NCBI GenBank assembly: GCA_023382335.1
Contig: JAMCPM010000006.1
Coordinates: 320,372 to 384,371 of the forward strand
DNA: 64,000 bases
Source of the DNA: Actinomycetota bacterium
Lineage (GTDB): Bacteria; Actinomycetota; Thermoleophilia; BMS3ABIN01
Direction: 5' to 3'
The notes under the pieces are model-generated. The model did not search any database and had not been told where the DNA came from. It was given only the letters and a program-made list of their open reading frames with translations. Below, piece by piece: positions 45,573 through 48,597 of this stretch; the stretch's first letter is position 1, and each line of letters begins with the position of its first letter. The position numbers were made by a program, and so were the translations under genes.

Positions 45573-45926
45573 CTAGTAATCTATCGTGGGACTGATGCCA
45601 ACGTAGTTATGGCACTTGTCGCAGAAATTGGTCCGGTCGGTGTGGCAGGACTCGCACTGCTTGGTGCTCTGTCCCGGCTGCTTGAGTATGTTCATGTGAT
45701 TGCGCATGTAGCTGAGATCGACTGCGCCGTTGGGAAGCAGCGGCTTGGGTAGATTGGCCGCATACTGATCCATGATGGCGCTGTACTGCTGCGCGGATGC
45801 GCTCACCGATATCGGGCTGGGATCGCCGTTGAAGAAGTGCCCGCTGCCGGCGTAGACGGAAAACGGCAGGTAAAGAATAGCCGCGAATATGATCAGGACG
45901 ATGATTGCCTTCAGTCTCATGCTCAT
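45573..45926 (-). CDS. dsrJ: DsrJ-like multihaem cytochrome c with only two haem sites
   Basis: 117 residues; ATG overlaps the dsrK stop (ATGA). One N-terminal hydrophobic helix (AIIVLIIFAAILYLPFSVYA) anchors it or is a signal. The end reads CESCH...FCDKCHNYVGISPTIDY. DsrJ proteins normally continue after the NYxG region to a third CxxCH. Here the protein stops, no such motif follows in any frame, and no other cysteine exists, so neither the third haem nor a Cys ligand is possible. Probably a reduced DsrJ that passes electrons with DsrM and DsrK. Confidence 0.75.
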   Translation of the reverse strand: MSMRLKAIIVLIIFAAILYLPFSVYAGSGHFFNGDPSPISVSASAQQYSAIMDQYAANLPKPLLPNGAVDLSYMRNHMNILKQPGQSTKQCESCHTDRTNFCDKCHNYVGISPTIDY

Positions 45927-47485
45927 GCTTTAGCTCCCAGTTCTATAGCCCTGGCGACCAACTGGTGCACGCCTCCCGCCGTTGTCATTGGCACTCCATA
46001 CTTGGGCATGATTTTTGTGAATTGAGCCTTGCAGATGGCGCAGATCAGCGCCATGAAGTTGACTCCGTCGCTTTCCATGACACTGTGCAGCGCCTGCATG
46101 CGGGGCATGGCGCCCTGGATCCTTATCTGCAGGATCTCGTCGCTCAGCAGTCCGCCGCCGCCGCCGCAACAGAAAGTCTTCTCATGGATGGTGTCCTTGT
46201 CCATGTCCACGAACTTGTTGCACGACGCCCTGATCAGATCCCTGGGAATGGTGAACTGCCCGCCGGGCTTGTCGCCCATCGCCGATCCCCGGGCCACGTT
46301 GCATGAGTCATGGAAGGTGACGGTGAGATCATCATTGGCCGACTTGTCCAGCTTGATGGCCCCACGATTCACCAGGTCGAGGGTGAACTCGCAGATGTGC
46401 TGCGGCGAGGGATACTTCGGGTCCAGTGTGTCGAAGGGCCCGATCAGGGTGTTCCAGAATGAATAAGCCACGCGCCAGGCATGCCCGCACTCGCCGACGA
46501 CCAGGCGCTTGGGCTTGATCTCGCGGATGGCGTCGGAGACGCGTGAGGCCACCTTCTGCATCTGGCCGTAGTTACCAATGAACATGCCGAAGTTGCCGGC
46601 CTCGGAAGCGGCGGTGCTGAAGGTCCAGCTGATGCCCGCCTGGTGGAACACTTTGGCGTAACCGAGCAGCGATTCGACATGCGGTGAAGCAAAGAAGTCA
46701 GCCGAGGGCGTGACCATCAGCACCTCGGCGCCGACCTCATCCAGAGGCAGGCGGATCTTCTGGCCGGTCTCTTCCTCGAGATCTTCCTCGGTGGATTCAA
46801 GCGTCGCTTTCAGCGCCTTGGGGTTCATGCCCAGATTGTTGCCGACTGTATGGACCTTGCCGATGATCTCGTTCACATATTTCTGCCCCAGGCCAATGCT
46901 GTCCATTATCTCCCGGGCCGCCATCGAGATCTCGGCGGTGTCGATACCGTAAGGGCAGAAAACCGAACAGCGGCGGCACTGCGAGCACTGGTGGAAGTAG
47001 GCATACCACTCGCCGAGGACGTTCAGGTCCAGCCTGTGCGCCCCGGCCAGCTTGCCGAAGAGCTTGCCCTCAGTGGTGAAATACTTCTTGTATACCTTGC
47101 GCAGGAGCTCGGCCCGGGCCACCGGCATGTTGTTGGGATCGCCGGTGCCGAGGTAGAACTGGCACTTGTCGGTGCAGGAGCCGCACCTGACACAGGTGTC
47201 GAGGTAGACCTGCAGGGACTTGTACTTCTCCAGCAGCTCGCCCAGCTTGCGGACGGCGGCTTCCTCCCAGTTGTCTACCAGCGTTTCCGGAAAACCCAGT
47301 TTGGCCTGGATCTCCGGCTTTGCCATGTAAGGTTTTACGTCGGCGGTCACACCCTTGACGATCAGGCCTTCCTCGACACGGGGCATGAAGACTTCGCCGG
47401 TTAGTTCCGGAGCCTTGAAATCCTTGTTTGGGGTTGACGCGGAGACTATCTCTGCAGGTGTCTTTTCGACGGTTTTTTCAGCCAT
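45923..47485 (-). CDS. dsrK: DsrK/HdrD-like iron-sulfur protein
   Basis: 520 residues. Two ferredoxin 4Fe-4S motifs near residues 96-165 (CVRCGSCTDKC with later C, and CSQCRRCSVFCPYG). Two CCG-type domains follow, including VVGECGHAWR, HDSCNVARGS and KTFCCGGGGGLLSDE, which by homology to HdrB/D hold a special 4Fe-4S cluster for disulfide chemistry. In the Dsr complex this subunit reduces the DsrC trisulfide/disulfide. Operon order M-K-J, no O or P genes. No dsrAB or dsrC in the window, so the physiological partner is unknown. Confidence 0.88.
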   Translation of the reverse strand: MAEKTVEKTPAEIVSASTPNKDFKAPELTGEVFMPRVEEGLIVKGVTADVKPYMAKPEIQAKLGFPETLVDNWEEAAVRKLGELLEKYKSLQVYLDTCVRCGSCTDKCQFYLGTGDPNNMPVARAELLRKVYKKYFTTEGKLFGKLAGAHRLDLNVLGEWYAYFHQCSQCRRCSVFCPYGIDTAEISMAAREIMDSIGLGQKYVNEIIGKVHTVGNNLGMNPKALKATLESTEEDLEEETGQKIRLPLDEVGAEVLMVTPSADFFASPHVESLLGYAKVFHQAGISWTFSTAASEAGNFGMFIGNYGQMQKVASRVSDAIREIKPKRLVVGECGHAWRVAYSFWNTLIGPFDTLDPKYPSPQHICEFTLDLVNRGAIKLDKSANDDLTVTFHDSCNVARGSAMGDKPGGQFTIPRDLIRASCNKFVDMDKDTIHEKTFCCGGGGGLLSDEILQIRIQGAMPRMQALHSVMESDGVNFMALICAICKAQFTKIMPKYGVPMTTAGGVHQLVARAIELGAKA

Positions 47486-47531
47486 TGTTTATCCTCTCAC
47501 CACTACAGATCTTATTATTTGCCAAGTTCTC

Positions 47532-48338
47532 CTAGGGGTCAGGAGACTCTTTGCCGACGATGAGCGCATGCGGAGCCGGCACCGGATCCTGAGACTTGGC
47601 CCGGCGGGGGTTCTTGACCGTCCAGGGGCCCCAGCGCTTTTTCCTGGAATTATCAATCTGGTTACGCGTCGGGCTGAAGAAGATTCCGACCGCGTGGATA
47701 AGCTTGCTGAAGGGGAAGTAGATCAGCAGCAACATCACCAGGCTGAAATGGATCAGGAACAGCCTGTTGCCGGGAACGGTCCCGGGATTGAACGTGAACA
47801 GGCCGCCAACGAACATCTTGATGTCAGGAAGATCCGCCCTGACGCCGCCGCCCTCCCAGAACCTGGAGAGAAGCCCGGTGGTGGCGATGCACATCAGCAG
47901 GCCCAGCAACAGATAGTCGTTGAAGACTGAAATATAGAAATGCCTGTCGATGACCAGCCGCAGGATAAACAGGAAAGCCAGGGCCGATAGCAGAATAAAT
48001 CCGGTATAAAGGTCAAAATTCACCAGATTGTCAAAAAAGGCGGGAGTCGCGGGGAAAAGAAATCTCAGGTGCTTCATGAAGACAAAGAGGCCGGCCAGAT
48101 GGAAGACGTAGCCACCCGCCCAGATGAGCTTGTTGCTCTTGAAGAGGCTCTTGAAAAGGACGACCTCCTGCACCACGCGCGAGCCGACGCCGATGCCGGT
48201 CTTGGGAGCGGGCGTAAGCGGGATCTTAAGGGGGGCCGGTGTGGCAGCGTACTTCCAGACTTTCAGCAAAACGCCGACCAGGAAAATGTCGACGGCAATA
48301 TAAAAATATGCGCTAAAAACAATGGTCAACCAGGTCAT
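47532..48338 (-). CDS. dsrM: DsrM/NarI-like membrane cytochrome b subunit
   Basis: 268 residues from ATG 48338 with a strong AAGGAGGAAAT. Six membrane helices with histidines at the right positions for two haems b (GGYVFHLAGLFVFMKH, LFLIHFSLVMLLLIYFPFSKLIHAVG), and SPTRNQ near the end, typical of DsrM. Membrane quinol dehydrogenase module that supplies electrons to DsrK. Spaced 46 bp from dsrK. First gene of the three-gene operon. Confidence 0.88.
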   Translation of the reverse strand: MTWLTIVFSAYFYIAVDIFLVGVLLKVWKYAATPAPLKIPLTPAPKTGIGVGSRVVQEVVLFKSLFKSNKLIWAGGYVFHLAGLFVFMKHLRFLFPATPAFFDNLVNFDLYTGFILLSALAFLFILRLVIDRHFYISVFNDYLLLGLLMCIATTGLLSRFWEGGGVRADLPDIKMFVGGLFTFNPGTVPGNRLFLIHFSLVMLLLIYFPFSKLIHAVGIFFSPTRNQIDNSRKKRWGPWTVKNPRRAKSQDPVPAPHALIVGKESPDP

Positions 48339-48597
48339 ATTTCCTCCTTGAACGCCAGAAATACCTCCGCAGGTATGGATTATTATGAGGTAGACAATGA
48401 AATTAGTCAAATAAGCCATGTTCGTATGGTTAGGTGGGCGAATCCAGCTATTATTCTTCCATTGGCTAGCTTAGAGGCGCACTAGTATACTCTCTACAGG
48501 TGGTATTAACTGTTTTTAACGGCAGGAAGACCTGCATACTGCGAAGCACGTCGGGACGGGGCCCGGGTTCACAATCCAGCTTTTATTCATCCAAGCC

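Follow-up and report, generated by a model that had tools for sequence, protein, structure and literature searches.

A DsrMKJ operon with a two-haem DsrJ in an actinobacterial genome that also has a complete DsrMCKJOP operon

Introduction

The membrane complex DsrMKJOP of sulfate reducers and of sulfur oxidizers with rDsr is the best-known relative of the operon described here. The cysteine of the CV motif of its DsrJ subunit is the ligand of a His/Cys haem, and the role of DsrJ and of this odd haem is an open question in both sulfate respiration and sulfur oxidation. Smaller complexes are also known. In the accessible text of PMC10504309, DsrMK-only complexes work without DsrO and DsrP and lack DsrJ as well. 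The cable bacteria carry dsrTMKJ, in which M, K and J stand together with the O and P homologues not adjacent, and a membrane-bound DsrMKJ complex is named in one of the three sources (PMC13047784, PMC10926707, PMC13293266; available parts). These bacteria are reductive-type Desulfobulbaceae, however, in which O/P homologues lie elsewhere in all closed genomes, and the same parts of these sources do not state the haem count of their DsrJ.

Closer to our genome, ACT_02 and ACT_11 (PMC9326234) and the Gaiellales SURF_19 (PMC7596348) belong to the same actinobacterial group and, as far as the available text of these papers goes, have two or three dsrAB sets. In the ACT metagenome-assembled genomes (MAGs), dsrAB copy 1 groups with reductive and copy 2, near DsrEFH, with oxidative sequences; ACT_02 is listed as 'DsrABCDMK', and dsrTMK and dsrD are transcribed in ACT_02 and ACT_11 (PMC9326234, available part). 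The accessible portions of PMC9326234 and PMC7596348 mention neither a two-haem DsrJ nor a separate MKJ operon. DsrMK-only, DsrMKJOP and cable dsrTMKJ are described in a set of papers (PMC10504309, PMC11406059, PMC7596348, PMC9326234, PMC10839748, PMC12948486, PMC10591310, PMC8076601, PMC13047784, PMC13293266, PMC10926707), whose available parts describe no two-haem DsrJ. No paper naming such a protein was found among the mostly open-access papers searched.

The operon reported here shares M, K and J with DsrMKJOP, as well as the cofactor ligands of M and K, and its DsrJ is homologous along its length. It differs in having no DsrO or DsrP and in its two-haem DsrJ, which lacks the Cys ligand and ~16 residues ahead of the first haem. 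Like the DsrMK-only complexes it stands without O and P, but it keeps a reduced DsrJ homologue overlapping dsrK.

Results

The window, a 64,000-nucleotide stretch of contig JAMCPM010000006.1 (assembly GCA_023382335.1), carries a three-gene dsrM-dsrK-dsrJ operon at 48338-45573 on the minus strand:

47532..48338, minus strand: dsrM-like gene for a NarI-type membrane subunit with two haems b, 268 aa counted from the start that has an RBS
45923..47485, minus strand: dsrK, 520 aa, iron-sulfur subunit of the cytoplasmic side, which has a CCG domain and two 4Fe-4S motifs
45573..45926, minus strand: dsrJ, two-haem form, 117 aa

The dsrM reading frame opens at 48419, and the start at 48338 has AAGGAGGA before it; the gene ends at 47532. 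The overlap between dsrK and dsrJ is an ATGA. On the 3' side of dsrJ, a convergent PEBP-type gene on the plus strand ends 10 bases past the dsrJ stop, and the other flank is a divergent glycosyltransferase gene. With these neighbours the operon stands alone, and its gene content and flanks confirm the preliminary description of an operon of M, K and J only.

DsrK of the window matches the NCBIfam DsrK model with 561.8 bits, above the cut-off of 400, and keeps 16 of 16 conserved Cys columns, including every conserved Cys of the CCG region. A Tmc or Hmc complex was considered and rejected, as DsrK scores only 187 bits against TmcB (cut-off 735) and 142 against HmcF (cut-off 750), far under its DsrK score. 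DsrM falls below the cut-off of 300 of its NCBIfam model (143 bits), as does the DsrM of the complete operon on C20 (172.5 bits); it matches Pfam Nitrate_red_gam and retains the four invariant His columns of haem-b type. The window and C20 copies are 78% identical in K and 54% in M. A PDB sequence search with the window DsrK gave no match. Against the orthologous operon L018, Nei-Gojobori dN/dS is 0.074 for M, 0.045 for K and 0.155 for J, and all three genes are under purifying selection.

An alignment of 19 DsrJ proteins shows that canonical members carry the CV-motif Cys first, then an H-M motif, ~16 further residues and finally three haem sites. Of these elements, the window DsrJ has the distal H-M motif and the first and second CxxCH, and it also has an N-terminal anchor helix. 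Missing are the CV-motif Cys, the ~16-residue stretch ahead of haem site one, and the whole end of the protein beginning with the third site. It has exactly two CxxCH, and the CV-motif column holds no Cys either in it or in its two-haem relatives. The alignment thus bears out the initial observation that DsrJ ends just past the second CxxCH with no spare cysteine. A sequencing error or frameshift was rejected, since DsrJ of L018, whose DsrK is 92% identical to that of the window, stops at the same place, and no further CxxCH follows the stop in any frame downstream. In L019 and L020, too, the orthologous DsrJ ends soon after the second CxxCH, so that the early end is found in all three relatives. 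For the window DsrJ, AlphaFold places only the anchor helix (residues 3-27) with confidence and the rest with low confidence (mean pLDDT 70.8, pTM 0.32). A Pfam HTH_AraC match to the window DsrJ (E=0.005, below cut-off) was taken as chance, and a PDB sequence search with a three-haem DsrJ (L038) gave no match. The window DsrJ reaches 30.7 bits with the NCBIfam DsrJ model, whose cut-off is 100; calls of 'DsrJ absent' from family models may therefore hide a real subunit.

The genome of the window (2.45 Mb, 99% complete) encodes much more of the pathway. On C20, the genes run dsrM-C-K-J-O-P-A-B, an 81-aa ORF in the DsrD position, and dsrL, with a CobB/CbiA-type gene at the DsrN place upstream. 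The 81-aa ORF (L098:5874-6119), a candidate DsrD by its position, has no Pfam or NCBIfam match. DsrJ of this run keeps the Cys and two CxxCH, and its third site is CX6CH. C2 carries a second dsrAB with dsrL, dsrE and dsrF, followed by a DsrH-like frame (L099:7899-13045, plus strand), and C11 carries sat, aprB and aprA, then two HdrA-type genes at the position of QmoA/B, and qmoC. Sat, AprBA and QmoC are thus all encoded, and the partners DsrC and DsrAB are both present at genome level. The preliminary description had noted no dsrOP, dsrAB or dsrC. This stands for the window locus, where the operon encodes neither DsrO nor DsrP, and fails for the genome: dsrC, dsrAB and dsrOP were all found in the C20 and C2 sets, which exclude a genome-wide absence of dsr genes, and DsrO and DsrP on C20 accompany another MKJ. 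The window operon is the second DsrMKJ of the genome. Of the combination that had been set against the initial reading, DsrO/P elsewhere together with a three-haem DsrJ in sister strains, only half is found, as the C20 O/P have their own MKJ and the window orthologues keep a two-haem DsrJ.

Two further loci of the genome are of note. A separate DsrO/P-like module on C7 (L161:3591-6201, minus strand) joins DsrO-like, NrfD-like and three-haem cytochrome genes, and recalls the dsrOhPh-tetrahaem locus of cable bacteria. C8 encodes a second DsrC-like protein (L100:7264-7656, plus strand) that lacks the cysteines found at the C-terminus of the C20 DsrC and is perhaps not a sulfur carrier.

A homologue scan of genome contigs, in which at least 574 loci were found and the 80 best retained, places the operon among three layouts. 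MKJ alone with a two-haem DsrJ occurs in the window, L018, L019 and L020. L021, L022 and L024 share a run of M-C-K-J(two-haem)-A-B-L-A2 that contains no O/P and in which A2 denotes a second dsrA; L023 and L032, the MAGs ACT_11 and ACT_02 by isolate name, follow it as far as their contigs reach. The third layout, M-C-K-J-O-P-A-B with a DsrJ that has the Cys and a stretched third site, is that of L025, L027-L031 and C20, and the contig of L026 ends after J. Within the host class, 17 of 399 genomes bear K: seven have only the two-haem DsrJ, six only the three-site type and four both. No DsrO stands beside DsrJ in the seven two-haem-only genomes of the family. Three genera have orthologues of the window operon; in its own genus the accessory copy is patchy (two of seven sampled genomes, including the window genome, G000). 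A search for DsrP in 22 genomes found it, 57-100% identical, in the genomes of the third layout except G009, which is cut by a contig end. In G004-G007 and G013 (L021-L024, L032) DsrP was not found; the single match in each was an NrfD paralogue of 27-29% identity, which DsrP-bearing relatives also have. In G014, G015 and G021 the search gave nothing.

Outside the Actinomycetota, K was found in 133 of 295 Nitrospirota genomes. Among the best 30 of these 133, five of them from the reductive-type side, DsrJ is of a two-haem, lipoprotein-like form in nine loci, a tandem four-haem form in nine and a three-haem form in five, and none was seen in seven. The tandem form (L139, L143-L150) is a DsrJ-like lipoprotein whose two-haem unit is duplicated to give four CxxCH, encoded directly after dsrK; at these loci, no DsrO match above 200 bits was closer than 10 kb to K.

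Because DsrO paralogues in all 39 genomes make a family search ambiguous, we relied on adjacency to K together with the DsrP search. By this measure (DsrO >200 bits, at most 10 kb from K), DsrO accompanies 14 of 14 loci whose DsrJ has the Cys and the third site, L155 being counted among them with three CxxCH although it has no Cys before the H-M motif, and none of the 29 two- or four-haem loci. Fisher's exact test gives 1.3e-11 over these 43 loci, which are related rows and not 43 independent cases; the correlation rests on few independent changes, at least three on the K tree. Left out of the count were L131 and L026 (contig ends), L128 (partial K), and the seven Nitrospirota loci whose retrieved stretch showed no J (L134, L135, L137, L138, L142, L152 and L153). 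The near misses are a partial 96-bit DsrO match 6.7 kb from K in G561 and a 143-bit match 34 kb away in G571.

The wide DsrK tree has 51 rows and is rooted with reductive-type K. The window K groups on the side that holds the proteobacterial sulfur oxidizers, and the two-haem actinobacterial rows form one clade (98/95 in the first tree, 100/99 in the 51-row tree), nested in a clade whose other members carry O/P (MCKJOP). Forcing the ten OP-bearing rows into one clade is rejected (AU p=0.029, a moderate value for a constraint picked after the tree was seen), and a single clade of all two- and four-haem rows is rejected at p=3.5e-7, so that at least three changes of DsrJ type are needed. This nesting makes the two-haem form of the actinobacterial family derived rather than ancestral, and for the window operon the ancestral origin first suggested is not supported.

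In several Magnetococcales (L041, L042, L050, L057) the genes run dsrC-M-K; no J, O or P was recognised within 2-6 kb after K, and a DsrP relative (31-34% identical) is present elsewhere in each genome.

Discussion

Our data suggest that the window operon encodes a second, pared-down and probably working DsrMKJ, which, lacking the DsrO/P arm, would act as a quinone/cytochrome c–DsrC thiol oxidoreductase, and that its two-haem DsrJ arose by reduction of a DsrMCKJOP operon within the actinobacterial family. We give this joint reading a probability of about 0.72. On the cytoplasmic side, the special CCG iron-sulfur cluster of DsrK would be the site of electron exchange with DsrC, the thiol/trisulfide protein whose gene lies on C20. 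Electrons would be carried through the two haems b and a quinone site of DsrM, and the two-haem DsrJ outside may, as a shortened shuttle, link DsrM to an electron carrier in the periplasm. Loss of the DsrO/P arm would deprive the complex of the second quinone site and of an NrfD-type subunit that possibly pumps ions; the third haem and the haem with the Cys ligand would have been lost together with this arm. The simplified quinone-to-thiol electron module proposed in the preliminary description is supported by the ligands kept in K and M, and by relatives whose only DsrMKJ, in an operon with dsrC and dsrAB, has no O/P.

The two-haem form is the only DsrMKJ in some genera and stands beside the full complex in others, including the window genome, where the retained second complex perhaps serves the oxidative-looking dsrAB-L-E-F set. 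Both this link and the direction of electron flow are proposals of ours. Across 19 genomes of the family, A2-type dsrA, the kind that lies beside dsrL-E-F on C2, and the two-haem DsrJ occur together in ten and are both missing in five, with DsrJ only in one and A2 only in three (Fisher p=0.04, uncorrected for kinship). All four genomes with an accessory MKJ have A2. The link to the oxidative set is loose, since A2 occurs without the two-haem DsrJ in G075, G120 and G115 and the reverse holds in G098. We infer that the two-haem complex can serve sulfur oxidation, and that in a genus with no other complex it would have to serve both sets.

An alternative is that an MKJ with a two-haem DsrJ came first and that DsrMKJOP grew from it. 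The Nitrospirota with two- or four-haem DsrJ and no adjacent DsrO do form a basal grade of the oxidative-type side when the tree is rooted with the reductive type, and basal oxidative-type lineages with only dsrMK are described in the accessible text of PMC10504309. The reductive-type outgroup itself, however, has a three-haem DsrJ with DsrO, so that loss is an equally good reading for the Nitrospirota. For the window clade, we consider a relict unlikely: the clade is nested among OP-bearing actinobacterial rows (p=0.029), one clade of all two- and four-haem rows is rejected (p=3.5e-7), and the window DsrJ shares its N-terminal anchor with the C20-type DsrJ, whereas that of the Nitrospirota is lipoprotein-like.

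The operon might also be a redundant paralogue in decay that, given the full C20 DsrMCKJOP, sheds first the third haem and then function, as the patchy occurrence of the accessory copy in the genus could suggest. Yet M, K and J are all under purifying selection, their cofactor ligands are intact, the window conserves the ATGA coupling, orthologues exist in three genera, and seven genomes have the two-haem DsrJ as sole form. This makes decay the least probable of the alternatives. Nor do we expect the complex to borrow DsrO/P in trans, although G000 offers both the C20 proteins and the C7 module. Five genomes with the two-haem DsrJ as their only DsrJ have no DsrP, and in the DsrP search the C7-type NrfD was not found in them, each having one match, of C10 type. 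A thiol or disulfide other than DsrC could be the substrate, since dsrC is missing from the window operon and C8 encodes the second DsrC-like protein, the one with no C-terminal cysteines. This too seems improbable, as the nearest operons (L021-L024) place dsrC between M and K and the window K holds every conserved Cys of the CCG region. A working complex without the DsrO/P arm, with DsrC as its probable partner, remains our preferred reading.

The correlation between DsrJ type and DsrO hints at a sharp connection, open to testing, between loss of the haem and loss of the O/P arm. As a tentative generalization, to which we give somewhat less than even odds, the Cys-ligated haem, the third haem and the ~16-residue segment of DsrJ might be one functional unit for talking to DsrO/P, lost wherever O/P is lost to leave a two-haem 'DsrJ2' (tandem four-haem in some Nitrospirota). 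Part of the oxidative-type 'DsrMK only' systems might then be unrecognised DsrMKJ2 with its own periplasmic electron outlet, kept in Actinomycetota as a direction-specific second complex next to DsrMKJOP. Natural complexes without the His/Cys haem, the third haem and the DsrO/P arm offer a ready comparison, as a single genome encodes the same K and M subunits once with the arm and once without it.

Other forms of DsrJ also occur. In the C20-type DsrJ (L098:10675-11094, minus strand; also L025-L031) the third site is stretched to CX6CH, and to CX9CH in L027; with haem binding there putative, this site could be a halfway step toward the two-haem form. In the Nitrospirota, DsrJ of L155 has three haem sites and no Cys ahead of the H-M motif, which indicates that the Cys can be missing while the third haem is kept.
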